Positions 1 through 12,325 of a stretch of DNA of 12,325 nucleotides are shown here, one piece after another (positions within the stretch are counted from its first letter, which is position 1; every line of letters starts with the position of its first letter). Source of the stretch: Candidatus Adiutrix sp. (GTDB lineage Bacteria; Desulfobacterota; Desulfarculia; Adiutricales; Adiutricaceae); NCBI GenBank assembly GCA_031273445.1, contig JAISRV010000434.1, positions 1 through 12,325 on the forward strand. The letters are read 5' to 3'. The position numbers were made by a program, and so were the translations under genes. The notes beneath the pieces are model-generated. The model was not told the DNA's origin and searched no databases. It worked only from the letters and a program-made list of their open reading frames with translations.

Positions 1-3000
1 GTCTGAAAACCCTTGAGGCCGGCGAGATCGGCCTTGAGGAAAGCGGCCTCGGCGGCCGAACTGAGATTGAAGCTCGCGTTTTTAAGACAGGCGCCGCTGA
101 AATCGGCCTCCCGGCCGGAACACATGCGCCAGTCGCTTTCAGACAGGTCGGCGTCCTTGAAAAGGGTTTGATTGAAAAAGACCCGCGACAGCCTCAGACC
201 CTTGAGGTCCCGGCCGCTGAAGTCCAGGCCGGACAGGTTCAGCCCGGTTATGGTTTCGCCGCGCGCGTAGAGGGCCAGCACCCGCTCCACCGTCGTCGGG
301 GTCAGGGTCAGGTCCACCCCTTTCGCTTTGGCTTCGGCCGCCGCTTCCGGGGGAAAGGGGTTTTTCAGCAGGCCCCGGCCCCAGTCCAGCAAATCCAGGC
401 CTTTTTGGTGCAGTTCGGCGGTCTTGGTCGCCGTCTCAATATGGCTGTCGCGGATTCTGGCCAGTTTGGCCCGGCCCTGCGGCGGCAAAACCCCGATTTT
501 ATCCAGCCGTTTTTCCAGGTCGTCCAGATGCCCCAGCAATTCCTGATTGGGCCCCGCGGGTTGGGGCGCTTCGATTTTATCCGGCCGGGCGAATTTTTTA
601 AAAATTTCGTCCGTGCTTTGCCCGTGAGGTTTGAGGTAACGGTCGAACTGGCGGGTCTCGGCCATGATTTTGTTTTTGACCGCCTCGAAATGCTCCGGCG
701 GGGAAGGAATTTTGCCGGCCACATGGGCTTCGACTTTGGCCCTGGAACGCGCCGCCAGGCCCGCCAGGTCGAATTCGGGAAATTTTATCGTCAGTTGGCC
801 GGCCTCTTCAGGTTTTTCCGGCAGACTTACGCCATAGGCCGGCGGCGCCTCAAGGCCGATGTCGGGCAGGAAGTCCATCAGCCAGTTCCGCAGGTCGAAG
901 CCGGCCCGGCGGGCTTCGAACAGGTGGGCGCCTTTTTCGAAGCCCCGCGCGGTCAGGCCGGGCAGGAGCCCCAGCCAAGCTTCGGTCTGGCCGGGATCAT
1001 CAACCAGACCAGCCGGAACCGGCAACACCGCCAGCGGCGCTGAGGCTAAAATTTCGGCCGCGCCCGCGGGCGGCTCGGCCCCCGGATCGCTCATTTGCAG
1101 GACCATATATTGATCGCCCGCTTCGGCATACAACAGCCAGGCAGCAAAAGGGTCGAGGGCCAGAACCAGAGGCCGGCCCAAACCGCCGCCCAGGAGGCGG
1201 ACCCCGGGCCGCGAGCCGGGCAGGAGAAAATCGCCTTCGGTCGGCCTGACCGGGCTGAAGGGGCTTTCGTCGAAGGGCCGCGTCAAAAGGCTGACGGCCA
1301 AAGCCCCGCTGAATTCGGGAATCAGCCAGCCGGGGCCCAGGCGGCCGCTCCAGCCGGGCGGCGGCTCTTTAAGGCCCCATTGGCTCAGGTCGATCTCCAG
1401 GGCTTGAGGCAAAAGGCCGAACAGCCCGGCCTTAATATCCCGCGAACGGAGCCCCAAAGCCGACAGCCGGCGGCGGCGCTCGTCGTCGCCGGTCAGGTTC
1501 CTCCGGCCCTGGGCCAGCAGTTTCAAAGTCTGCCTGGACCACGGGTCGCCGCCGCCGTCAAGGGGCGGCGATTCCAGGGTTTGCGGGTCCAGGCCCAGCC
1601 CGGCCAGGGCTTCCCTGACCCGGCCGGCCGCCTCCAGCGGCAGGGTGGTCAGGGTTTCATCCCGCAGTTTGCCCAGGTTTTTCTTCGCCATGGCCGAGGT
1701 TTTAGCCGCGGCCTCGGCCAGAACCGTCTTTTGGGCCAGGAGTTTTTCCTCCATTTTGGCCAGATTGGCTTCCATGGGCCCCAGCAGACGGACGTCGACG
1801 GGCATTAAGTGGCCGAATTGCTTTTTCGTGTCGCTTAAAAGCTTTTTCTGGTCCGTCAGCAAAGACTTCAGACGGCCGAAGTTGGCCAGATGGTCGTCGA
1901 TCACCTCGTTTACGGTCGTCGGAGCGGTCGGGCCCCGGCCCAGATGGCGTTCCAGCTCCAGGTCCACGTCCTGTTCCAGAGTGCGCAGATTGCGTACCGT
2001 CTCGTTGACCTTGTCGGCGGCCTTCTGAAAGGGGCTCATGTCTATCGGCGCGCTGGCCGCGCGCCGCCGTTTCTGCTCCTGAAGATAGTCCTCCAATGTT
2101 TTCGGCGGCTGGCCCTCGGCCTCTACGGCCACAAACAGGCAGTTCAGGTCGCCGAATTCCTCGTCGACCGTGGGAATCAGGGCCCGATATAGGGTCAGCC
2201 CGCGTTCGTCTTCCGGGAAAAGCCAGACCGTTTCCAGCCGGGTCTGGGCCTCGGCGAATTTTTGTTCCTCAGGTTTTTTAGGATCGGGGGCGGAGGTGAC
2301 GAAGAGCCTGACCCGGGCGCGGGGCACAAAGCTCTCCAGGCGATATTTTTCCGGGTGACAGCCCTCGATGACCACCCTTTCCCCGCCCTGGAAAAACCCC
2401 TCCGGCAAGATCTGGCCCGGCCCGGCCACGGAAAAAAAGTTGGGGTCAAGATCGTCGGGAAAGCCCGGCCAGCGGCGGCGCAGCCAGAAATCGTCATAAG
2501 TTCCGGCCAGGGGCTTGCGGCTGGGCCAGCTTAGCGGGCAGGGCAAAAAGGAGGCCGGGGCGGGCTGGTCGTCCGGCCCGCCTATAAGGCCGCGGGCCTC
2601 TTCGACCTGCGGCAGGGGCCGGTAGGGTTGGCCCGCCGGCGACAGCCTCCTGACCGCGCCCAGCCCGCCGGGGTTGTCCAGGCGCTCGTCGCCGCCGTAA
2701 GCCATATTCCAAGTCAAAGGGACGGCCGTAAAATCTTCAGGCGCGCCGGGGGCCGGGCCGCCCGGGCCGACCGACCAGCGCCGGGGGCCGAAAACGGCCA
2801 GGGCGCGCCTCAGGCCGCCCACCTGAATTTGGGCCAGGCCCCGGCCCGGCGTTGGTTCGCGGCCGGTCGCCGCCTTAAAGGTCTCATATAATTTGGGTTG
2901 GCCCGGCCAGAAGGCCCGGCCGGCGGCTAAAAATTCGCCGCGCGGCTTGGGAAAACCGGCATCCAATAGGGTTTCCGGCCCCAGACGCGCCTGGACCAGA

Positions 3001-3143
3001 GGCCAGAGCTCCTGTTCCGACAAAGCCGTCTCCGGGTCGTCCAGCTTAAAAAAAAGCATGACCGCGACCTGGAGGCGCCATTGACCGCCCAGACCGACGG
3101 CCGAAAAGAGCAGACTTTGTTCTATGTCTTTGATGACCTGCAT
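1..3143 (-). CDS. DUF2169 T6SS adaptor-like protein with coiled coil and C-terminal pentapeptide repeats (3' end outside window)
   Basis: The frame stays open from an ATG at 3143 to the left edge (1047 codons, no stop). Its N-terminal ~300 residues resemble DUF2169, including the family-like sequence NMAYGG at residues 146-151. DUF2169 proteins are encoded beside VgrG and PAAR genes; in Agrobacterium one serves as adaptor/chaperone loading an effector on the spike, and I infer a similar role. Residues ~372-500 are charged and heptad-rich, a long coiled coil. Residues ~600-760 look globular and I do not recognise them. A second charged helical stretch follows. From ~965 onward there are pentapeptide repeats (blocks such as SGLDF, SGRDL, KDADL, READF, LKADL) predicting a right-handed beta-helix that continues past the edge. 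The start lies 4 bases after the previous stop with no clear Shine-Dalgarno, suggesting coupled translation. Domain family fairly sure; function inferred. Confidence 0.85.
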   Translation of the reverse strand, partial: MQVIKDIEQSLLFSAVGLGGQWRLQVAVMLFFKLDDPETALSEQELWPLVQARLGPETLLDAGFPKPRGEFLAAGRAFWPGQPKLYETFKAATGREPTPGRGLAQIQVGGLRRALAVFGPRRWSVGPGGPAPGAPEDFTAVPLTWNMAYGGDERLDNPGGLGAVRRLSPAGQPYRPLPQVEEARGLIGGPDDQPAPASFLPCPLSWPSRKPLAGTYDDFWLRRRWPGFPDDLDPNFFSVAGPGQILPEGFFQGGERVVIEGCHPEKYRLESFVPRARVRLFVTSAPDPKKPEEQKFAEAQTRLETVWLFPEDERGLTLYRALIPTVDEEFGDLNCLFVAVEAEGQPPKTLEDYLQEQKRRRAASAPIDMSPFQKAADKVNETVRNLRTLEQDVDLELERHLGRGPTAPTTVNEVIDDHLANFGRLKSLLTDQKKLLSDTKKQFGHLMPVDVRLLGPMEANLAKMEEKLLAQKTVLAEAAAKTSAMAKKNLGKLRDETLTTLPLEAAGRVREALAGLGLDPQTLESPPLDGGGDPWSRQTLKLLAQGRRNLTGDDERRRRLSALGLRSRDIKAGLFGLLPQALEIDLSQWGLKEPPPGWSGRLGPGWLIPEFSGALAVSLLTRPFDESPFSPVRPTEGDFLLPGSRPGVRLLGGGLGRPLVLALDPFAAWLLYAEAGDQYMVLQMSDPGAEPPAGAAEILASAPLAVLPVPAGLVDDPGQTEAWLGLLPGLTARGFEKGAHLFEARRAGFDLRNWLMDFLPDIGLEAPPAYGVSLPEKPEEAGQLTIKFPEFDLAGLAARSRAKVEAHVAGKIPSPPEHFEAVKNKIMAETRQFDRYLKPHGQSTDEIFKKFARPDKIEAPQPAGPNQELLGHLDDLEKRLDKIGVLPPQGRAKLARIRDSHIETATKTAELHQKGLDLLDWGRGLLKNPFPPEAAAEAKAKGVDLTLTPTTVERVLALYARGETITGLNLSGLDFSGRDLKGLRLSRVFFNQTLFKDADLSESDWRMCSGREADFSGACLKNASFNLSSAAEAAFLKADLAGLKGFQ

Positions 3144-3147
3144 ATTT

Positions 3148-3789
3148 TCACATAATGATTAAGGCGCCGCTTTGGGTTCTGACCACGGAATTTACGGCGG
3201 CGGTTCCGAAGGCGCCCAGGTCGGCGCCTCTGATTCGGGTGCTCTGGCCGGCCGCTTGCTGGGCCTGGCCGAAGGCCTCGGTTTGCGAAGCGTCCAAACT
3301 GGCGGCGGCGCCTTCGGCGCGTGTTTCGGCCCCGTTGACCGCGCTGGCCGCCAGGGCCGCTTCCTGACGCTGCCCGGCCACAGCCAGGGCTTCGGCGCCG
3401 GCCTGGCTCAGGCTCAGAGCGGCCTCCTCGACCGCGCCGATCGTCTCCAATTGTGAAGCGGACACGACCGTATCGTCCAAAGTCGCTCTCTGTGTCTCCA
3501 CAGTGGTTTTTATCGTATTTATCCCGGTCTTGACCGCTGAAAGCGCGGCCTTAAGCCTGATCAGCCCGCTTCTGGTTTTGAAGCCGGAAAATTCAAATTC
3601 ATGCAGGCCCGCTTCAAATTTTCTCCCCGGGCTCGCGGAGACCGATACTCCCAAAGTCAGCGCCAACACGAAAACAGCCGTCGTCAGGTTGACGCCGAGA
3701 ACCCCGGAGAGGGACAGGTTTATAAACATCTCCGCCCCGCTGGCCACTTTTACGTAATAATAGTCGCCCTCTTCAACATACCCTTGCAT
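3148..3789 (-). CDS. Unknown protein C (213 aa), vgrG-linked: hydrophobic N-terminal part plus Ala-rich coiled coil
   Basis: I do not recognise the family. The start is an ATG at 3789 preceded by a modest AAGG about 8 bases upstream. Residues 5-17 carry an acidic/aromatic motif (VEEGDYYYVKVAS). Residues ~22-52 are hydrophobic with alternating small and branched residues (TTAVFVLALTLGVSV), readable as a membrane segment or amphipathic beta strands. Residues ~75-185 form an Ala-, Gln- and Glu-rich coiled coil, and the tail is hydrophobic (SGALIIM). There is no signal peptide. The layout matches the two unknown genes on the other side of vgrG. It sits 33 bases after vgrG and 4 bases before the DUF2169 gene, the usual place for a VgrG-linked cargo or its partner. 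Cargo, spike accessory or membrane-inserting effector are all open; the gene itself is well supported by tight spacing. Confidence 0.8.
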   Translation of the reverse strand: MQGYVEEGDYYYVKVASGAEMFINLSLSGVLGVNLTTAVFVLALTLGVSVSASPGRKFEAGLHEFEFSGFKTRSGLIRLKAALSAVKTGINTIKTTVETQRATLDDTVVSASQLETIGAVEEAALSLSQAGAEALAVAGQRQEAALAASAVNGAETRAEGAAASLDASQTEAFGQAQQAAGQSTRIRGADLGAFGTAAVNSVVRTQSGALIIM

Positions 3790-3822
3790 GCCGGCCGCCT
3801 TTGCTGATTTCGCCTTTTTGTT

Positions 3823-5397
3823 TCATTCCACGCCCATGGCTTTGATTTTGGCTTCGTGTTCTGGGTCGATCGTGCCCATGGAAAACAGCGTGCCGCTGGC
3901 TTCCGAAGTCATTCTGATGACTTCCTGGCCCTGCTGGTCATTGATGTGAATTTTGTTGCCGGCGGCGCTGTCCAGCTTGATCTGGGTCTGATCGGCGTCC
4001 GTGACCGGGCTGGGCGTCTCCGGGTTGGGCACGGCCCCGGCGATGACCATCCGGTCGGGATCGCCGTCGAGAAAAGCCAATAGCACCTCGGCGCCTTTGT
4101 GCAGGGGGGCGTGAAAGCCCATGCCGGGCCCGGCGTAAGGCTGCATAAGCCGCAGCCAGGCCGAGGCCTTGCCGCCGCCGCGGCCCGACTGATCCAGGGG
4201 CAGCCGCACCTTGTAGCGCCCCTGCTCATCGAGTTCGGCGTACTGGCCGCTGCCGGAGGCGTCGATCTTGGCCGGCATGAAGCCGGGCAGAACCGGGCCG
4301 GCTTCCGGCCTGGGCGGGCGGAACTGACGCTCGGCCGGGATGGCCCTGAAGTTGTTGCGATAGAAAAGGGCCTCCTCGCCCAGCCCGCCGAGACCCAGGC
4401 CGTTGATCAGATAGCGGGTCTGGCTGCCTTCATGCCGCAGGTGAACGGCCAGATAACGCTGATTGCAGCTCTGGCGGTAATGATTTTCCAGTTGGAAAAT
4501 ATAGCCCGGGCGCAGGTCCCGGACATCGCTGGCCCCCGCGGCGGTCATCTGGCCGCATAAATATTCCTCGGCCCTGATTTGGGCCAGCTTCCGGCCCTGG
4601 TCCAGGTCCGCGAAGCCGGCCCCGTAGATATAGACCGCGCCCTGGCCTTTGGCCGAGACCTGGCGTTCCACGGTCAGGTCCAGACCGGGCTTCTGGTCGT
4701 TGTAGTCCTTGAGGGTCAGCTCTTTGGGCAGGGGCTGGCAGCGGAGGCTGAAGTCGTGAATGTTTTCCTGTTGACCGTAATCCAGACCGCTGGGCTGGGC
4801 ATAGCGCAGTTTGACCCCGCCCGGCAGTTCGGCGTGGGCCACGGCCCGGTCGGAAAATCTGACTTTCTCGCCGTCCGGCGTTTCCATGAACCAGTAATAG
4901 GCCCCGTGGCGGGCCAGCCAGCGGGCCAGGAAATGATAGTGGCTCTCATTGTACTGGAGCGTCATTTCCCGTTCGGGGTATTCTTCAAGAAGCTTGATTT
5001 CAAAATCACGGCCGGCGTTCAGCCCGCCGTCGGCCAGCAGGGCGGCCAGGAAATCCGGCATTTTCTGTCCGAGAAAAACCTGGTTATGAAAAGTCAAGGT
5101 CAGCCGCCACAGCTTGGGCCGCAAGACGGCCCGGTAAAAGGCGTAGGGCCCGAATTCATGGCCCTGCTCAAAAGAAGAGAGAAGGCCGCTGATGACCCGG
5201 CGTCCCTCGGCCGCCTGAAGGGTCAGGCTGGCCTGGCCATAGAGGGCCTGCTCCAGGTCAACCGCCTTGTTTTTGGAAATGAGGGTCAGTTCAAAGCGAT
5301 ACAGTTCGCTCAAGCCTTCGTCGCCGTTGAAATTCACCACCAGAAACTCGTCGTCGGGCAGCGAATCGATCTTAAAAGTGAAATACTCTTCAGCCAT
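3823..5397 (-). CDS. vgrG: T6SS spike protein VgrG (TssI), short form
   Basis: VgrG trimers form the tip of the Hcp tube that the contracting T6SS sheath drives into a target cell. The 524-residue product has the full standard layout: an N-terminal gp27-like part (residues ~5-350, with FRVNF-type opening and the typical LQYNESHYHFLARWLARHG at 147-165), then the gp5-like OB fold (~370-455) with PGMGFHAPLHKGAEVLL at 424-440 and AFLDGDPDRMVIAGAVPNP at 441-459. A short beta spike (TQIKLDSAAGNKIHIND, from 471) follows. It ends ~65 residues after the OB fold with a small polar helix-like tail and has no toxin extension, so it is a structural rather than an 'evolved' VgrG. I chose the ATG at 5397 because AAGAGG lies 9 bases upstream; the in-frame TTG at 5406 directly abuts that site. 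Its neighbours are unknown proteins B (upstream) and C (downstream). Confidence 0.96.
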   Translation of the reverse strand: MAEEYFTFKIDSLPDDEFLVVNFNGDEGLSELYRFELTLISKNKAVDLEQALYGQASLTLQAAEGRRVISGLLSSFEQGHEFGPYAFYRAVLRPKLWRLTLTFHNQVFLGQKMPDFLAALLADGGLNAGRDFEIKLLEEYPEREMTLQYNESHYHFLARWLARHGAYYWFMETPDGEKVRFSDRAVAHAELPGGVKLRYAQPSGLDYGQQENIHDFSLRCQPLPKELTLKDYNDQKPGLDLTVERQVSAKGQGAVYIYGAGFADLDQGRKLAQIRAEEYLCGQMTAAGASDVRDLRPGYIFQLENHYRQSCNQRYLAVHLRHEGSQTRYLINGLGLGGLGEEALFYRNNFRAIPAERQFRPPRPEAGPVLPGFMPAKIDASGSGQYAELDEQGRYKVRLPLDQSGRGGGKASAWLRLMQPYAGPGMGFHAPLHKGAEVLLAFLDGDPDRMVIAGAVPNPETPSPVTDADQTQIKLDSAAGNKIHINDQQGQEVIRMTSEASGTLFSMGTIDPEHEAKIKAMGVE

Positions 5398-5406
5398 GGC
5401 GGACAA

Positions 5407-5412
5407 CCTCTT
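5407..5412 (-). promoter_or_regulatory. Ribosome binding site of vgrG
   Basis: AAGAGG on the minus strand, 9 bases before the ATG at 5397. It decides the start: an alternative TTG at 5404-5406 touches this site directly and could not use it. Confidence 0.6.
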
Positions 5413-5425
5413 AAAGTCATTTTTG

Positions 5426-5462
5426 AAAAAACGGCCGCGGCTTTGAATCCGCCTTCCGGCGG
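5426..5462 (-). terminator. Possible weak terminator or attenuator upstream of vgrG
   Basis: The 74-base gap between unknown protein B and vgrG contains, in minus-strand order, a hairpin CCGCC-GGAA-GGCGG (5462-5449), a GC palindrome GCCGCGGC (5441-5434), and a run of six T (5431-5426). The T run is not directly behind the strong hairpin and the palindrome has almost no loop, so the fit to an intrinsic terminator is imperfect. It could trim transcription into vgrG or simply stabilise the mRNA end. Confidence 0.25.
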
Positions 5463-5471
5463 CTGGCGGCC

Positions 5472-6281
5472 TCAGCCTATTTCGTCATGGGCGATGACCG
5501 TGGTGACGGCGCCCGTAGTCTGCCCGCTAAGGCCGTCGACCTGATCCGCGCTGGCGGCCGCCTCCGCCATCGACCCTCCAGCCTGAACCTCGGAGGCCCC
5601 GAGGCTCTGGCTGGAAGCGATCAGAGCCGCGGCCTGGCCGGCGACCTGGCTTTGGCTGCCCATAGCCGCGCTGCTCTGGCCGGCCAGCCGTGTTTCATTT
5701 ATTGACAATTCCTGCGCCTCGACCGCGCTGCGCATGCTCTCGGCCAAAACGGCCAGGCGGTCGGCCCGGGCCTCGACCGCCTCCACCCGCGCCGTCAGCT
5801 CATTGGCGCCCGCGTCGATTGCGGAAACCGTCGTGCGTACTTCCGACAATTTAGCGCTGGTTTTTTTTACCGCGCTCTCCAGGGTCTCCAGATTTAAAGC
5901 TTCTTTCAAGACCTTGGCTTTGACTTTAACCGCGGCGGCCGTAAGCTGCGGGCCGACGAAAACCGAGACTTCCGCGCCTTTGGCGAAGGCGTCCAGGGCG
6001 AATTTAAGATTCACCGAAAGCCCTACGTTGATGTCCACCAGATACCAGCCGATTTTTATGGCGAACAGTTTTATGTTTGTCCAATGGTAGTCGCCGCTGA
6101 AATTTATGCGTCCCTTTTCCTCTTTTTTCTCGTCGCCCTCTCCCTCTTCTTGCTCGCCGCCCTCTCCCTGTTCCGGCTCGGGCGGCACGGTCAGGTCGCC
6201 GTCTTCCTCGCCGTGGGCCCGGCCGGTCAGGGCCAGCCACCAGTCGACGATTTCCTGGGCGATGGGGTGTTGTTCAGACAT
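5472..6281 (-). CDS. Unknown protein B (269 aa), vgrG-linked: acidic linker, hydrophobic domain, Ala-rich coiled coil
   Basis: I do not recognise the family. An N-terminal helix (residues ~5-20, QEIVDWWLALTG) is followed by a very acidic, Gly/Glu-rich linker (~24-56). Residues 59-117 form a domain starting FSGDYHWTNIKLFAIKIGWY with alternating hydrophobic segments (VGLSVNLKF, AEVSVFVGPQL). From ~118 to ~215 there is a charged, then Ala/Ser/Gln-rich coiled coil, and the tail is rich in small residues. No signal peptide or known toxin motif is visible. The start overlaps the stop of the preceding gene by 8 bases (ATGTCTGA), has no clear Shine-Dalgarno, and is probably translated by coupling. 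Its GDY-aromatic motif, hydrophobic core and coiled-coil order match unknown proteins A and C, so I infer a paralogous set serving the VgrG spike. Confidence 0.82.
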   Translation of the reverse strand: MSEQHPIAQEIVDWWLALTGRAHGEEDGDLTVPPEPEQGEGGEQEEGEGDEKKEEKGRINFSGDYHWTNIKLFAIKIGWYLVDINVGLSVNLKFALDAFAKGAEVSVFVGPQLTAAAVKVKAKVLKEALNLETLESAVKKTSAKLSEVRTTVSAIDAGANELTARVEAVEARADRLAVLAESMRSAVEAQELSINETRLAGQSSAAMGSQSQVAGQAAALIASSQSLGASEVQAGGSMAEAAASADQVDGLSGQTTGAVTTVIAHDEIG

Positions 6282-6939
6282 GGGTCGTTACGAGGCTGGT
6301 CTCGTTAATCAGGCCGGCGGAATGATTGGCTTGCGCCTGGCTTATGGCCAGGTCTCCGATCGCCCTGGAGTGGGCGGTTCTCATATTCAGGTCTCTGGCG
6401 CTGAATCGGGCCTGACTGGCGGAGGCGCTTTCCGATGAGGCCCGGGCCGCGCTGCTTGATGTCGCCAGCGCGCTCCTGTCGGCGGCGACGCCAAGACGGG
6501 TGAGGGCGGCCTCGTTTTGAACGGCGGCGGAGGCCAGAGAAGTCAGGGTGGTCACGGAGCGGGCGGCGGCGACCTGGGCCCTCTCCAGACGGGTCTTAAG
6601 TTCGTTAAGACGCGCGGCGACCCGGTTAGCCTGGACCGACGTATCATCGACCCCGGCGCTGACAAGGTTGATGGAAACTTCGACTTCTTCGGCCGTGGTT
6701 TCTTCCTCATTCGCCTTTAAGCGCATAGGCGCCATCGTGATCAGGCTGTCTGAAGTCAAAAAAACCCCGACCGTCAAAGTCAGCGAAAGATTAAGAAGTA
6801 TAGAGCCGGTGAATTCGCCGATGGCGGCCGCCGTCGTCAAAGAGGAGCCGCAGAACTTGACCGCGCTGCCGAAAACAATGTCCAGATAGGAGTTTTCCCA
6901 TTCCCCTTCCACCAGAAATCCGGTCGTTTTTTCGCTCAT
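6274..6939 (-). CDS. Unknown protein A (221 aa), first gene of the vgrG cassette
   Basis: I do not recognise the family. I chose the ATG at 6939 because a near-perfect AAGGAG lies 5 bases upstream; an in-frame TTG at 7008 has no such site. Residues 8-24 hold the motif LVEGEWENSYLDIVFGS, equivalent to the GDY-aromatic motifs of proteins B and C. Residues ~26-66 are hydrophobic (GSILLNLSLTLTVGVFLTS), possibly a membrane segment or beta hairpin. An acidic patch (78-88) leads to a coiled coil (~100-200) that changes from Leu/Arg-rich to Ser/Ala-rich. The C-terminal part contains INET (211-214); protein B has INET too. It is the first gene after the 102-base gap and overlaps gene B by 8 bases, so A and B are coexpressed. 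Likely T6SS cargo or spike accessory; function unknown. Confidence 0.82.
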   Translation of the reverse strand: MSEKTTGFLVEGEWENSYLDIVFGSAVKFCGSSLTTAAAIGEFTGSILLNLSLTLTVGVFLTSDSLITMAPMRLKANEEETTAEEVEVSINLVSAGVDDTSVQANRVAARLNELKTRLERAQVAAARSVTTLTSLASAAVQNEAALTRLGVAADRSALATSSSAARASSESASASQARFSARDLNMRTAHSRAIGDLAISQAQANHSAGLINETSLVTTHV

Positions 6940-6944
6940 AAGGG

Positions 6945-6950
6945 CTCCTT
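6945..6950 (-). promoter_or_regulatory. Strong ribosome binding site of unknown gene A
   Basis: AAGGAG on the minus strand, 5 bases before the ATG at 6939. It is the best Shine-Dalgarno in the window and fixes the start of gene A at 6939 rather than the upstream TTG. Strong initiation here fits the head of a separately expressed cassette. Confidence 0.75.
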
Positions 6951-6986
6951 GTCCTGGCTTAAGGCTCGCCGGCCTTTTATCCGGCC

Positions 6987-7015
6987 AGTGTAGCACAGAG
7001 TTCGTCAAAGCTCCA
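6987..7015 (-). promoter_or_regulatory. Candidate extended -10 promoter for the vgrG cassette
   Basis: On the minus strand, TACACT (6992-6987) is preceded by TGC, an extended -10 arrangement. With a 17-base spacer the -35 position would be TGGAGC (7015-7010), only three matches to TTGACA. The site lies in the only sizeable gap of the window, about 50 bases upstream of the gene A start. Weak by sequence alone. Confidence 0.3.
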
Positions 7016-7032
7016 CCGCGCCAGGCGGGAGC
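7010..7032 (-). terminator. Possible weak terminator after tssA
   Basis: Ten bases after the tssA stop the minus strand can fold GCTC-CCGC, loop CTGGC, GCGG-(TG)-GAGC, a GC-rich stem with a two-base bulge, followed by only three T. This would be a leaky terminator at best, separating the apparatus genes from the vgrG cassette. It overlaps the -35 region of the candidate promoter. Confidence 0.25.
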
Positions 7033-7041
7033 GGAAGTTTT

Positions 7042-8544
7042 TTATTCGTCTTCGGGCGGCAGCGATAAAACCGCGGCCGGATCCAGCCGGGCCAGACGGG
7101 CGGTCAGAGCCCGGAGGGGCTGTTTTTTTTCCGGCCCCGCCGCCTGGTAGGCTTTATGGGCGGCCAGAAAAGCGGCCCGGGCCAAAGGCGGGTCCCAGTC
7201 GGTCAGGCCCCTGTGGTCTACCTCGGCCAGGGCCATCTCGGCCAGATCGGCGGCCGTGCCTCGGCGGCCGGCCCTGAGCGTCAGCTCCACCTGTTTGAGC
7301 AGAAGATTCAAACGCGTCGGGCCGTCGCCGGCCTCTTTCCCGACTTTGCCCAGCCAGGCCAGCGCCGCCCCTGTTTCGCCGGCCGCGATCAGCCGCTCCA
7401 GCTCGGCCGTCTGCTCTTGCCGGGGCTGAGGCTGATTTAAGCCGTCCGCGCCGGAGCGGCCTTCCTGGAGCCAGCGGCGGGTATCGGGGTCGGCCAGAGG
7501 GAGGCCGTCATTGAAAGACAGGTCCAACAGGCCCGGCCGGCCGGCGACGAAATCCAGCGTTTCCCTTCTCACCGCTTCGGCCGCCGGATGATATTCCGGC
7601 CCCAGGCCGGTCAGGGCGCGGGCGCAGAAATAATGCAGGTCCAGCCAGAAGATATAGGCCGCGATCTGGTCTTCGGCGGCCAGGGCCGCCTCTTTGAAGC
7701 GCCCGTTTTCCAGATGGGCCAGGATATTGCCGCGCGTTTCCGGCGGGGGCGGCGGCAGCATGGTTCGCCCGCCTTCGCTGGGCGGAGCTTTTTCGACAGC
7801 CAGCCAGATGCGCCAGCGCGAGGCCTTCCAGCGCCAGGGGTCGCTGAAATTTTCCTCCGCGGCCAGACGGACGAAATCCGCCGCCGCTTCGGCCAGAAGG
7901 CGGCGGGCCGAGGCCGGATCGGCGGTCTTTTCCGGATCGGCGGCCGGGGTCGGGGCAGGCTCGGGCGCGCCCGCGGCGGAAACGGCCGGCGTCGGCGCCG
8001 GGGCGGCTTGAAGCGCCGGCAGGCGCCGCACGAGCTGCCGCAACTCGTTCGGAAGTCTGGCCTCGGGCGCCTTTTCCCCGGCCAGCCGATCTAGGCGCTC
8101 GGCGGCGGCTAAAATAGCCTCATACTGTTCACGGCCCAGTTCCGGCCCCGTATATTTTTCCAGCCAGGCGGCGATTTTTTCCTGCTGCCAGGTCAGGGCG
8201 TTCAGGCGGGCCCGCAGCCGTTTCAGGGGCGGAAACATGTTTTCCCAAAATGTTTCCAAAAGGTCGCCGACGAGGGTCAGGCCCTGCAGCAGTCCGTCCG
8301 GGCCTTCGGTTTCCATTCGCCCCACGGCCAGATAGACGGCCGCCAGAAGGTCTTTGGACTGTTCGGCCAGAATGCGGGTCCCCAGTTCCGTCGCCAGGCG
8401 CCAGTCAACGCCGCCCGCCGCCCCGGCCATGGAGGAAAGTTTGTCGATTTCAGCCTGGAGGGCCAGAAAATCGGCTTCATAGCGGACGTCGGAACCAGCC
8501 GGAGATTCGGGGCTGATCGGTTCTTTGCCCAGTTCAATGGTCAT
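7042..8544 (-). CDS. tssA: T6SS protein TssA (ImpA_N / VasJ type)
   Basis: TssA proteins bind the baseplate and the distal end of the growing Hcp tube/sheath and guide its polymerisation in the cytoplasm. The 500-residue product shows an ImpA_N domain at residues ~8-135 (SPESPAGSDVRYEADFLALQ, ending LETFWENMFPPLKRLRARLN at 96-115), an Ala/Pro linker at ~180-212, and a C-terminal VasJ-like region (~213-500). The latter has WRIWLAVEKAPPSEGG (244-259), a Pro-rich turn (264-268), IFWLDLHYFCARALTGLG (298-315) and LSFNDGLPLADPDTRRWLQ (342-360), all typical of this TssA class. Length is normal. The ATG at 8544 overlaps the end of the AMIN-like gene by 11 bases, so translation is probably coupled. 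A 102-base gap separates it from the vgrG cassette. Confidence 0.94.
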   Translation of the reverse strand: MTIELGKEPISPESPAGSDVRYEADFLALQAEIDKLSSMAGAAGGVDWRLATELGTRILAEQSKDLLAAVYLAVGRMETEGPDGLLQGLTLVGDLLETFWENMFPPLKRLRARLNALTWQQEKIAAWLEKYTGPELGREQYEAILAAAERLDRLAGEKAPEARLPNELRQLVRRLPALQAAPAPTPAVSAAGAPEPAPTPAADPEKTADPASARRLLAEAAADFVRLAAEENFSDPWRWKASRWRIWLAVEKAPPSEGGRTMLPPPPPETRGNILAHLENGRFKEAALAAEDQIAAYIFWLDLHYFCARALTGLGPEYHPAAEAVRRETLDFVAGRPGLLDLSFNDGLPLADPDTRRWLQEGRSGADGLNQPQPRQEQTAELERLIAAGETGAALAWLGKVGKEAGDGPTRLNLLLKQVELTLRAGRRGTAADLAEMALAEVDHRGLTDWDPPLARAAFLAAHKAYQAAGPEKKQPLRALTARLARLDPAAVLSLPPEDE

Positions 8545-9217
8545 CGGCGGGCGCCCTTTCCCCGTCCGCCGGGCTTTTCAGGGTTATGGAAAAAGTTTTC
8601 TGATCGATGGCCTTGACCAGCGGCGGCGCCGCGCCCAGCCCGCCCTGGAGCGGCCGGTGATAAAGAACCAGCCGCAGGTAGCCGTGGTGCAGGCCGACGG
8701 CCAGCCGCCGCACCAGACCTTTCGGCCAATGGTAGTTGTTCTCCAGCTTAAAACGCCAGTCGGCCGGCAGGTCAATGATCCAGACCGGTTGGACGCTGGT
8801 CTGATAGCTCAGACGCGAAGTCAGACGTCCGCCGTGATATGCGAAACGGGCTTCAAAATAGTCGGGGTCGTTTCTGACGACCTCCATGGCTTGAAGCTCC
8901 CACACCGCCGGGGGCGGATCCGGAAAAACCAGCGGCGCGGCCGGCTCGGGCGCTTGCGGCTCAGGCGGCGGCCCGGGAGCTTCGGCCGGGGCCGGGGCAG
9001 GCGCGGCCGCGGGCGAAGGCGGGGACGCGGGAACTTCGGCCGCGGCCGGAGGCGGGGGCGCGGCCGCCGGAGGGCGGCCGCGGCGGTTGAAATTTGCCAT
9101 GATCTCAAGATAGATGTCTTGGTCGTGGCCGACGGACCAGGAAAAGACGGCCGCCGCCAGCCCCAGCCAGGCGAAGGTCATCAATAGGGGGGCCCGGCCC
9201 AGAACTTCCAGTTTCAT
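8534..9217 (-). CDS. Membrane-anchored AMIN-like protein of the T6SS cluster
   Basis: The 227-residue product has a short cytoplasmic start, one hydrophobic anchor (residues ~9-29, LLMTFAWLGLAAAVFSWSV), a Pro/Ala-rich linker (~48-105) and a C-terminal domain (~108-215). That domain reads like AMIN: VVRNDPDYFEARFAYHGG, then VWIIDLPADW (145-154) and VRRLAVGLHHGYLRLVLY (169-186), matching the 'IDLP...W ... R..VG.H....R.VL' pattern. AMIN domains sit in the periplasm and can bind or localise to cell wall, so a role in anchoring the TssM complex to peptidoglycan is my inference. The ATG at 9217 is set by GGGAGG six bases upstream and overlaps the tssM stop (ATGA). A longer in-frame reading to 9676 gives an Arg-rich sequence inside tssM and is rejected. 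Domain call moderate; gene call strong. Confidence 0.85.
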   Translation of the reverse strand: MKLEVLGRAPLLMTFAWLGLAAAVFSWSVGHDQDIYLEIMANFNRRGRPPAAAPPPPAAAEVPASPPSPAAAPAPAPAEAPGPPPEPQAPEPAAPLVFPDPPPAVWELQAMEVVRNDPDYFEARFAYHGGRLTSRLSYQTSVQPVWIIDLPADWRFKLENNYHWPKGLVRRLAVGLHHGYLRLVLYHRPLQGGLGAAPPLVKAIDQKTFSITLKSPADGERAPADDH

Positions 9218-12200
9218 GGCCGGCCTCCCCCGGGGGCGGCTTTTTGGCCCTCCGGCGCTTCCCCCGGGCTCTGGGCGCCTGGGTCGCCGGCGGCCAGGGC
9301 CGCGCTCACGTCGGCCGGAGCGACCGCCAGCCAGGGGCTGGTTATGAGGTTGGGCACGGCCAGAACCGGTCGGCCGCCGTCCCGCCAGATGTCCTCGGCC
9401 CCGTCTATCTTGTAGTGAACGGTCAGGTTTTCTATGCCGGCCGCTTTCATCTGGGCGGAAACGGCCGGAAAGTCGTCGGGGCCGAAGGTGACGGCGCCCT
9501 GCCTGAAGGCGTTGAGGAAATCCACGAAGCCGTTTTCGCCGGGCCAGATTTTCTCGGCCGTGAAGGCTTCGAAAGCCGCCATTAAAGTGACGTCGCCGCA
9601 GGAACTCATTTTCCAGTTGAAAGTGGCTTCGGCCGGATAATTGTAGTTTTCCAGATACTGCTCGCCGTCGGCGCACTGCAGATACAGGCCCACCAGATTA
9701 GGTTGGAGCGCCGTGGGCGGGTTCATGGTCGGAGGAATGGCGGTAAAGGCGACGGCATAGGCGTCCTGAAGGCTCTGACCGTGCCGCCAGCCGGTGTTCA
9801 GCAGGCCGAAAAAATCGTCGGTGAACGGCAGAGTCAAGCCCAGCCATTCGCGGCTGCGCCAGCCGGAACTGCCGCTGGCGATAAAACCTTTCGCGTATTT
9901 GTCGATAAAGACCGGAACCAGCCCGGTCGCCGGGGCGAAGAGGGTCGCCCACATTTTCTGTTGCGGCACGTAAACGGTGGGGCCGACCACCTGATCCTGC
10001 CAGTAGGAATTGAGCTGCGCCGCCGCCTGTTGATTGACCGTGCCGGCCAGAAACGACAGCGGGCCTTCCATGAGCCGCCAGATTATTTTTTCCTCGTCGT
10101 CCCGGGTTCCCAGAAGAGCCGACATTTTGTGCAGATCGGCCAGGGCCAGGTCGCCCGGCAGCTGGTCGCTCTGGGATCGGGCGTAGTGGTTCTGGGCCAG
10201 GATAAACCCGGCTTCCGGCGAGGTGACGGCCGGAATGAAGGCCGTCAGTTGGGCCAGATAGTCGGTCAGGGCTTCGCCGGCCTGAAGACGGGTTTTCAGG
10301 TCCAGGTAGGTTTTTTCGTCGACCTTGGCCGCCGTTTCTTCAGCGGCGCTCCGAGCCAGGTCGACGATCTGGCTTCTCAGGGGCTCCGGGCGGCCTTCGT
10401 CGGCTTTGGCTTTGATTATTTCGACCAGCTTGTCGCAGGCGACCGCCCAGTTGGGTTTGGGCTGGAGGTCGTCTATGACCGACAGTTCGGCGGCCATGCG
10501 CTTCAGAAAGTTCAGATAGGGGCTGTCAAAGCCGTTCATGCCGCCGGCCAGGTTCAGCCAGTCGTTGCGGGTGGAGCGGGCGGACAGGCTTTTGGCGCCC
10601 TGGTTGAAATTGCGGGCCAAATCCAGCCAGCCGCTGTAGTAGCGGCCGTGATACTGCCGCCAGAAGTCGTCCCTATAGGCGTCGGTCACGTCGTTTTCGG
10701 GGAAAAGGCGGTCCAGGCTTCGCAGCAGACGCTCAATCTGACGGCGGCCTTCCGCCGTGAAGGCCGCGGAAATGCTCCGGTCGTCTTCCGGCGGCAGGTC
10801 GGACCGCCAGAATTCGCTCAGCCTGACCGGCGGGGCATAGCTGTGCTGGAGCATCCATTCGAACAGCCAGGCCAGGCCCCGATTATCTATTATGGCCCCG
10901 AAGCGGTCTTTCAATAAAATGGCTTCACGCTCCTTCTGCCGCAGGTCGGACCGCCAGCCGATATAGGATATATACATGTCCCCCAGATTGGGGCTGATGT
11001 CCGGGGTCTCGGGGCCGAAAGCCATGATGACCGCCCGCATGCCTCCGACCTCCGCCGACCGGAGGGCCAGAGGGTCTTCGCCGGCCAGCAGGTCCAGCCG
11101 CCAGATTATGTTGGAGAGATAGGCATAGATGAACGAATCGGCCCCCCCGTCGCCGGGATCGACCCGGCCGGCTTCTTCAAGACGCCGGTTCATGGGCGCC
11201 AAGACGGCCTGCGCGTACATCCGGCAGAACCGGCTCTTCAGCATGGTCAGCGTCTCCCGGCCCTGCCCGGACCACAGCCGCTCGACCCGGGCCTGGCCCA
11301 GCCTGGCTTCCAGATTGGCTATGCCGTCCCGAAACTGACTCAGGGCCAGACTGTCGTGGATGAAATCGCCGTTCAGGGCCGGGGCGACCGGAAAAGCCCG
11401 GAACAGTTCGTTCTGCGCGGCGCGCACATGGCGGTAGCTGTAGCCGGAGTAAGCCAATAGCCCTAAAAGCAATAACAGCCAGAGGCCTAAAAAGGCCGCC
11501 CGCCGTCGGGCTTTCCGCCAGAGGGCGGCCGGCCTGAGGCGTCCGGCGTGCCGTTCGCCGGGCAAAACGGCGCCGAAAAAATCGTGCAGAAACAGGCCGC
11601 CCGCGCGGGCCTGTTCGGCCGGGGCGGCGGCCGCTTTCGCCGAATCGTTTTCAAAGGGGGCCGCGTCGAAAAGCCCGGCTTTGGCCTGGCCGCCCGCGCG
11701 GGCCGCCGAAAAGAACAGCCCGCGCAGATTCACCGGCTGCTGGTAAGGGTTTTCGCCGAGGCGGCCGACGACTTTCTCCAGGCCGGGGGCCAGGGTTTCC
11801 AATTCGCCGGGCAGGCCCAGGGCCCGGGCATGACGCCCGTCGCGGCCGCTCAGCGGCAGACGGCGCTCTTTCAGTTCCCTGACGATTTCTTCCAGAGCGT
11901 CGGCCGCAAAAAGCGGCGGCTGCAGGTTCAGTTCGTTCAGCGCGCCCAGGGCCTGACGCCGCTCGTCCGGGCGCAGCAGAGCGGCCAGGTCGGCCGCGCC
12001 GTACAACAGATCAAGCTTGCTGACCATGATGAAAACCGGCGGCGTTTCGTCGGCCAGGGCGGCCAGGTCTTCCAGCCTCAGACGGACGGCGGCGGCGGCT
12101 TCTTCTATTTCGTTGGAGCTTCCGCTTAAAATAAGATCGACCGGCAGAACCAGAACTATGCCGTCCAGCGGCTTTGAAGGTCGGTTGGCGGCCAGAAGGC

Positions 12201-12325
12201 GAACCAGTTCGTTCCATTCCTCAAGGTCGTCTGCCGGGTCGTCAGGCAGGGCGTAGCGGCCGGCGACGTCCAGCAGAACGGCCCGGCGGCAGAAGCGCCA
12301 TTCGCAATAGGCGGTCGGGCCGTCT
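9214..12325 (-). CDS. tssM: T6SS inner-membrane protein TssM (IcmF family), 5' end outside window
   Basis: TssM spans the inner membrane and forms, with TssL and TssJ, the trans-envelope channel on which the T6SS baseplate docks. The window holds the last 1037 codons; the N-terminal membrane helices and Walker A motif lie beyond 12325. The visible part opens in the cytoplasmic NTPase-like domain: TAYCEWRFCRRAVLLDVAGRY (ending at visible residue 24, with the DxxG-type DVAGRY at 19-24), then LDGIVLVLPVDLIL, then PVFIMVSKLDLL with SKLD at 102-105. A helix (~277-297, AFLGLWLLLLLGLLAYSG) leads to the large periplasmic region typical of IcmF/DUF1215. The protein ends with FGPDDFP, SPWLAVAP and a disordered Gly/Pro-rich tail of ~25 residues. 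The ATG at 12027 is internal, because the frame and the family motifs continue upstream of it. The stop overlaps the next start by four bases (ATGA). Confidence 0.95.
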   Translation of the reverse strand, partial: DGPTAYCEWRFCRRAVLLDVAGRYALPDDPADDLEEWNELVRLLAANRPSKPLDGIVLVLPVDLILSGSSNEIEEAAAAVRLRLEDLAALADETPPVFIMVSKLDLLYGAADLAALLRPDERRQALGALNELNLQPPLFAADALEEIVRELKERRLPLSGRDGRHARALGLPGELETLAPGLEKVVGRLGENPYQQPVNLRGLFFSAARAGGQAKAGLFDAAPFENDSAKAAAAPAEQARAGGLFLHDFFGAVLPGERHAGRLRPAALWRKARRRAAFLGLWLLLLLGLLAYSGYSYRHVRAAQNELFRAFPVAPALNGDFIHDSLALSQFRDGIANLEARLGQARVERLWSGQGRETLTMLKSRFCRMYAQAVLAPMNRRLEEAGRVDPGDGGADSFIYAYLSNIIWRLDLLAGEDPLALRSAEVGGMRAVIMAFGPETPDISPNLGDMYISYIGWRSDLRQKEREAILLKDRFGAIIDNRGLAWLFEWMLQHSYAPPVRLSEFWRSDLPPEDDRSISAAFTAEGRRQIERLLRSLDRLFPENDVTDAYRDDFWRQYHGRYYSGWLDLARNFNQGAKSLSARSTRNDWLNLAGGMNGFDSPYLNFLKRMAAELSVIDDLQPKPNWAVACDKLVEIIKAKADEGRPEPLRSQIVDLARSAAEETAAKVDEKTYLDLKTRLQAGEALTDYLAQLTAFIPAVTSPEAGFILAQNHYARSQSDQLPGDLALADLHKMSALLGTRDDEEKIIWRLMEGPLSFLAGTVNQQAAAQLNSYWQDQVVGPTVYVPQQKMWATLFAPATGLVPVFIDKYAKGFIASGSSGWRSREWLGLTLPFTDDFFGLLNTGWRHGQSLQDAYAVAFTAIPPTMNPPTALQPNLVGLYLQCADGEQYLENYNYPAEATFNWKMSSCGDVTLMAAFEAFTAEKIWPGENGFVDFLNAFRQGAVTFGPDDFPAVSAQMKAAGIENLTVHYKIDGAEDIWRDGGRPVLAVPNLITSPWLAVAPADVSAALAAGDPGAQSPGEAPEGQKAAPGGGRP
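9224..9229 (-). promoter_or_regulatory. Ribosome binding site of the AMIN-like gene
   Basis: GGGAGG on the minus strand, six bases before the ATG at 9217 and inside the last codons of tssM. It supports the short start of the AMIN-like gene. Confidence 0.55.

Follow-up and report, generated by a model that had tools for sequence, protein, structure and literature searches.

VgrG spikes of type VI secretion systems (T6SSs) are usually described as trimers in which hub and needle lie on one chain, and the needle of phage T4 gp5 is built from one chain type in three copies. The 12 325-nucleotide stretch analysed here (the window; contig JAISRV010000434.1 of Candidatus Adiutrix sp., assembly GCA_031273445.1) carries a T6SS spike locus in which a short vgrG gene is accompanied by three small genes, termed A, B and C. 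The best explanation for their products, with a probability of roughly 0.6, is that they form the detached distal part of the spike, split off from VgrG.

As a type VI locus it resembles those of Class III of the Tvp systems, to which the VgrG1–Paar1 system of Serratia marcescens belongs (PMC13373197). The likeness lies in the accessory genes. The window contains an open reading frame (ORF) combining DUF2169 with C-terminal pentapeptides (TvpAB; PF09937, E-value 9.3 × 10−64; PF00805, E-value 1.3 × 10−5), which is full-length in a congeneric genome (G004, contig of Candidatus Adiutrix sp. Gx485_bin45). A separate pentapeptide protein (TvpB; PF00805, E-value 3.5 × 10−53) is encoded in G004 (L011:18731–19894), and the window contig ends before that position. 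A DUF3540 protein (TvpC; PF12059, E-value 2.1 × 10−30) and a DUF4150 PAAR-like protein (PF13665, E-value 1.1 × 10−28) are encoded in the window genome (G000) on contig C131, which differs from that of the window. No DUF4150 gene was found in G004, where the T6SS contig ends just behind TvpB, and the PAAR family PF05488 was not found in any of the eight genomes searched. A role for A, B and C as replacements for a missing PAAR or DUF3540 protein was considered and dropped, both being present in G000.

The difference lies in the spike itself. According to the available text of the Serratia study, Tvp-associated VgrGs are usually 700–800 residues long and Class III beta-prisms are longer than those of Tvp-less VgrGs (PMC13373197); the available text also holds no counterpart of A, B and C. 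The long extended beta-prism, a tendency of Class III that does not strictly define it, is lacking in the window VgrG, which has 524 residues and a tail of 96. A VgrG of this length is at odds with the long spikes of Class III unless its needle comes in trans. Differing chains within one spike are known from heterotrimeric VgrG spikes, which a review mentions (PMC10433429); there whole VgrGs differ, whereas in the window the heteromeric state would be confined to the distal part, on a hub supplied by one vgrG. A literature search, whose coverage excluded subscription papers and preprints, turned up no account of split VgrG needles or of A, B and C.

Short VgrGs, fused extensions and separate genes

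The window VgrG stops where the beta/stalk region of its fused relatives starts. The fused VgrGs of Desulfocapsa (L091, 49% identical), of G101 and G148 and of many members of family f45 continue for ∼230–270 further residues, in which a beta segment with a glycine period of 8, often preceded by a Gly-rich or acid-rich linker, leads to a stalk with a glycine period of 7 and a hydrophobic C-terminus. The DUF2169 gene directly follows vgrG in L091, G101 and G148. In the window, vgrG is located between B and C, with the TssA and TssM genes upstream, and C occupies the vgrG–DUF2169 interval, where relatives carry the fused extension. Of 18 fused extensions, 15 show the glycine period of 8 in their beta part (P < 0.05) and 16 show that of 7 in their stalk (P ≤ 0.002), although the 18 are related and the counts are not independent. 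A search with the fused beta region against the PDB gave 15 matches at E ≤ 1; 14 of these are to gp5-type spikes (best E-value 0.0015), many of the 14 being variants of one protein. The fused relatives thus share with phage T4 gp5, an octad triple-stranded beta-helix, both the octad glycine pattern and a profile match, but differ from it in that a heptad stalk follows the octads; the window proteins differ further in being three different chains. With the fused VgrGs, A, B and C have in common the position after the OB domain, the size, a beta-like segment followed by a stalk (with glycine heptads in B and C), a hydrophobic end and the adjoining DUF2169 gene, and C and B score with the profile of the fused extensions. 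They differ in that the window has three chains, that their beta segment is not recognized by profile comparison and that glycine octads are present only in B. Other VgrG relatives (G394, G360, G382, G189 and G240) have long tails that by eye are of a different make.

In the stalks of the fused VgrGs at L129 and L133 (G537 and G559) near-perfect TIGQH[TD]x heptads place Ile and His three residues apart, with a repeat arrangement that differs between the two genomes.

Fused and separate arrangements are complementary in the loci examined. All nine complete short-tailed VgrGs (tails of 82–96 residues) adjoin separate genes, with cores of 194–225 residues. A trio accompanies the VgrG of the window, G004, G196, G665 and G625, a pair that of G527, and a single gene those at two G619 loci and one G560 locus. 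Long-tailed VgrGs (309–450 residues) have a DUF2169 gene directly behind them in 24 of 24 cases (gap of −4 to 66 nucleotides), and none of the 24 has a spike-like ORF of fewer than 420 residues beside it in the stretch compared, a negative count that is weakened by an upstream reach of only ∼1.5 kb at 13 of these loci. The census took complete VgrGs with a readable tail motif at loci chosen by similarity to these VgrGs, several from one genus, and does not sample them at random; VgrGs truncated at a contig end were left out (G031, G233, G694, G695, G021 C71 and G024 C194 12336–13340). A close VgrG of this kind occurs in five of the 79 genomes in the genus of G196; in two of the five it is truncated at a contig end.

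A short VgrG frame in G578 was rejected as part of a broken-up VgrG with a long tail; at this T6SS locus (L166, G578:C2) the VgrG split into two frames has as neighbours two long VgrGs that are intact and differ in their tails. The separate gene of the second G619 locus scores 61 bits with a profile of which it was not part, and no DUF2169 gene was found at that locus. There (L163:5134–5718) and at L152:6068–6676 (G560), both in genus g278, the separate spike-like gene and vgrG are convergent rather than co-directional. An invertible switch or an assembly error at G560 is unlikely, because no inverted repeats flank the inverted gene and the same orientation recurs at the G619 locus.

Trios and a proposed heteromeric shaft

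Trios of separate genes occur in Adiutrix and in one other genus (G196, G665 and G625). In each trio exactly one member bears a long low-complexity N-terminal extension, or arm (B in Adiutrix, S3 in G196 and T1 in G665 and G625). Without the arm the core lengths are 221/213/213, 222/213/213, 220/222/224 and 218/225/209 residues, with core starts placed by eye and an uncertain one for T2. The core alignments between G000 and G004 are nearly gapless: A has a single gap close to its beginning, C is free of gaps, and those of B are confined to the N-terminal part and linker; together with the divergence of the cores, this suggests a fixed register. The arm of Adiutrix B opens with the near-invariant segment PIA[QK]EIVDWWLALTGR, and residues 6–21 may form a helix with a docking or recruitment role. 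In G196 ∼127 residues precede the S3 core (L110:9038–10093), roughly half of them Pro-Val-Glu-Pro-type repeats.

Assembly of A, B and C into a heterotrimer is a tentative proposal, held with less assurance than their detachment from VgrG. VgrG would supply the hub and the OB trimer and end at the first residues of the beta-prism, and A, B and C would co-assemble as a trimer on this stump, most simply in a 1:1:1 ratio. The short beta segment would rest on VgrG and be extended by the heptad stalk (∼130 residues), and the short hydrophobic C-terminus could seat the DUF4150 PAAR-like tip, the loading of which would be aided by the DUF2169/pentapeptide (TvpAB and TvpB) and DUF3540 (TvpC) proteins. 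B would retain an acidic linker like the tether between VgrG and extension in many relatives, and its conserved N-terminal segment may dock it. The model as a whole, a shade more doubtful than the heterotrimer itself, is that the spike here is an obligate heterotrimer with a hub from one vgrG gene and a distal shaft of three chains, one with a free acidic arm; this arrangement would have been kept in two lineages, breaking the threefold symmetry below the asymmetric PAAR tip and offering three non-equivalent faces for cargo docking.

If this is correct, the distal shaft is a separable module, which explains how a short VgrG can work in a locus of the long-spike class and offers a natural route to tip exchange or to an asymmetric cargo platform. 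The comparison also puts a name to an unannotated protein group, for further members of which a short VgrG beside one to three genes of ∼200 codons may serve as the genomic sign.

Homology, structure and alternative explanations

The three genes reported in the initial annotation are present as minus-strand ORFs with orthologues in G004, where the order A–B–vgrG–C–DUF2169 is identical. Its placing of them in a T6SS spike locus also holds, the linkage to vgrG recurring in both genomes where A, B and C were found. Between the window and G004 the three proteins are 44–51% identical (Table 1), compared with 80% for VgrG, 61% for TssA and 70% for the DUF2169 protein. Ratios of nonsynonymous to synonymous substitution rates (0.50 for A, 0.33 for B and 0.33 for C) make them look like genes under selection. 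As had been stated, they match no known family: the best E-values were 0.06 (Pfam), 0.03 (NCBIfam), 0.05 (PHROGs) and 8 × 10−4 (PADLOC; match to an SMC-like coil). Wherever a library sets a curated cut-off, no match came close to it, and no recognizable toxin, immunity, PAAR, chaperone or MIX-type domain was found in these four libraries. The genus is represented by seven genomes, of which three have VgrG matches and two have A, B and C. Profile A5, searched against 395 genomes of the phylum, gave convincing matches only in the two Adiutrix genomes; seven further weak matches in seven other genomes (E-values 1.8 × 10−5 to 7.8 × 10−4) include five loci at which no T6SS genes were seen among the ORFs read (L080, L081, L083, L084 and L085). 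Three weak matches in genomes of the family likewise had no T6SS genes nearby by eye. A and C searched against 5.8 billion protein sequences matched only themselves and P0002, and a search with a 16-sequence alignment, in which the 7996 candidates sharing most words were scored, returned C itself and P0004, a relative of T2.

The described look-alike architecture of the three proteins holds in part. Mutual BLASTP matches join A to B (E-value 0.001 over A residues 84–221), A to C (0.033 over A residues 47–175) and B to C (6 × 10−7 over B residues 63–263 and C residues 8–203), but these lie in low-complexity stretches and are weak evidence of homology. Hydrophobicity alternates in a beta-strand-like manner in the N-terminal parts of A (P = 0.02), B (P = 0.003) and C (P = 0.05) and in the G004 orthologues of B (P = 0.043) and C (P = 0.005), but not in that of A (P = 0.21). 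Of eight fused extensions examined for the same alternation only one reaches P < 0.05, as do some of the split proteins. This alternation suggests a beta structure for the N-termini weakly. The INET string said to be common to A and B does occur in both, but its position differs between the two and neither G004 orthologue contains it.

A hidden Markov model (HMM) of 20 fused extensions was run on 718 sequences and three reversed ones. The scores for the window and G004 proteins, respectively, were 28.3 and 23.2 bits for C, 21.1 and 4.3 for B and 3.6 and 3.2 for A. Split proteins of other genera scored 14 to 58 bits, and controls reached 5.5 for the best of 150 shuffles, 8.5 for reversed A and at most 8.5 for unrelated coils. 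A second profile, to which the split proteins and C but neither A nor B had been added, gave 38.7 and 25.5 bits for B and 23.7 and 10.0 for A, with 13.3 for the best unrelated coil and at most 4.4 for shuffles. A six-frame scan of G000 with the fused extensions ranked C second and B third, and in a scan with a mixed profile B and C took the top ranks in G000. Both glycine periods are found in B (8, P = 0.009; 7, P = 0.001), and C has the period of 7 only, in its last 130 residues (P < 0.001).

The stalk profile matches coiled coils (8qox, E-value 3.3 × 10−6) and also a grass antifreeze beta-roll (3ult, E-value 0.004), the latter being matched by the whole-extension profile at 5.4 × 10−5; the Pfam family LbR_Ice_bind falls below its cut-off in L091. 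In the AlphaFold model of C residues 64–209 are helical, with a predicted local distance difference test (pLDDT) score of 61–76 over residues 81–180 and nothing usable before residue 75. The coiled coil earlier assigned to A, B and C is likely for their stalk, with a beta-roll as the alternative.

Several of these results weigh against a detached spike. Both A and its orthologue score below reversed A with the fused-extension HMM, the B orthologue reaches only 4.3 bits, and with the second profile the A orthologue falls below an unrelated coil. In the six-frame scans a generic long coiled-coil ORF outscores C in G000, another outscores the C orthologue in G004, and A was found in neither genome; the mixed profile found no trio member in G004. 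The comparison by hhalign of the fused beta regions with the N-termini of the window proteins gave a probability of 1.8%, a search with the A, B and C N-termini against the PDB found no spike, and A shows neither the glycine period of 8 nor that of 7. A clear low-complexity linker (at least 80% of 25 residues) is present in only 11 of 22 fused VgrGs and absent in G101. The AlphaFold model of C, from six sequences, has a mean pLDDT of 52 and a predicted template-modelling score of 0.22, with residues 1–75 below 50; it does not bear out a common fold, only the stalk appearing as helix, and a Foldseek search with this low-confidence model found no match in the PDB. The model of the L091 VgrG (pLDDT 35.5) was unusable. 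Both C and A include stretches whose hydrophobicity (maximum mean of 2.11 and 1.75, respectively) would suffice for a membrane helix. Sequence alone thus does not prove the link of A, B and C to the fused extension; the case for it rests on position, complementarity and architecture, and is least certain for A.

The hydrophobic segments in C and A could instead mark membrane-active T6SS cargo, either effectors or an effector with its immunity protein, carried by VgrG. The fast divergence of the three proteins relative to VgrG would suit such a role, as would the Serratia immunity gene vai1, which lies closely behind vgrG1 in a position like that of C (PMC13373197). Vai1, as described in the available text of that report, is a transmembrane helix plus a periplasmic beta protein, unlike C. 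Three proteins of the same design do not make an effector–immunity pair, no toxin or immunity family was matched in the four libraries, and relatives have a comparable segment fused to VgrG, in several close relatives as part of the same protein, without a separate gene. The cargo, immunity or chaperone roles first suggested are accordingly improbable. Still less probable is a role in assembly alone, with A, B and C as scaffolds that imitate the VgrG tip, are not secreted and are swapped out before firing; the precedent would be TvpC, a trans-encoded VgrG mimic in the pre-complex according to the same study (PMC13373197). G000 already encodes a DUF3540 TvpC on another contig, A, B and C are without an OB domain by Pfam, and the window VgrG would be left without a long tip.

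The heteromeric complex on the spike that had been listed among the possibilities comes close to the explanation preferred here, with trimer formation as its conjectural part. A competing arrangement of the same detached parts, in which A, B and C are each homotrimeric and provide one VgrG with tips that alternate or stack, is unlikely, if less so than a cargo role. It draws on the loci of genus g278 with one or two such genes, where a single chain type can suffice, and on the presumably homotrimeric fused relatives; against it stand the gene number of exactly three that both lineages with trios share, the one armed member in each and the near-equal core lengths.

Features of the window and neighbouring genes

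The T6SS genes of the window (contig C17 of G000, a genome 72% complete) all lie on the minus strand, in the order TssM, a small ORF, TssA, A, B, VgrG, C and the DUF2169–pentapeptide gene, the last being cut by the contig end (Table 1). The A and B ORFs overlap by 8 nucleotides, and the DUF2169 ORF begins 4 nucleotides beyond the end of C. A promoter scan of positions 3000–7200 found none, and a search against Rfam gave no match.

Table 1. Coordinates of features in the window.
Feature	Position	Strand	Remarks
Gene A	6274..6939	−	221 residues; beta-alternating N-terminal segment, then Ala/Ser-rich stalk; orthologue P0002 44% identical
Gene B	5472..6281	−	269 residues; conserved helix-like N-terminal segment, acidic linker, core like A and C; orthologue 51% identical
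B residues 6–21	6219..6266	−	PIA[QK]EIVDWWLALTGR; near-identical in G000 and G004 (alignment)
B residues 22–56	6114..6218	−	Acidic low-complexity linker; proposed remnant of the VgrG tether
Short VgrG	3823..5397 (from ATG)	−	524 residues; gp27-like hub, OB domain, start of beta-prism only
VgrG tail	3826..4113	−	96 residues counted from the HAPLH motif (OB-domain motif)
Gene C	3148..3789	−	213 residues; beta-like N-terminus, heptad stalk; orthologue 48% identical
C residues 64–209 (stalk)	3163..3600	−	Helix in AlphaFold model; glycine period 7
TvpAB-type gene	3..3143	−	DUF2169, long middle region, pentapeptide repeats; runs off contig
TssA	7042..8544	−	–
TssM	9214..12324	−	N-terminal end runs off contig

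On contig C131 of G000 the gene directly behind that for the DUF3540 protein (L160:2011–2448) is an ORF that we take to be transposase-like. Between TssM and TssA the window has a proline-rich ORF of 231 residues (8534–9229, minus strand) with a hydrophobic N-terminus and no Pfam match; in the relatives L067 and L068 an ORF of 839–855 residues beside TssM likewise has a hydrophobic start.

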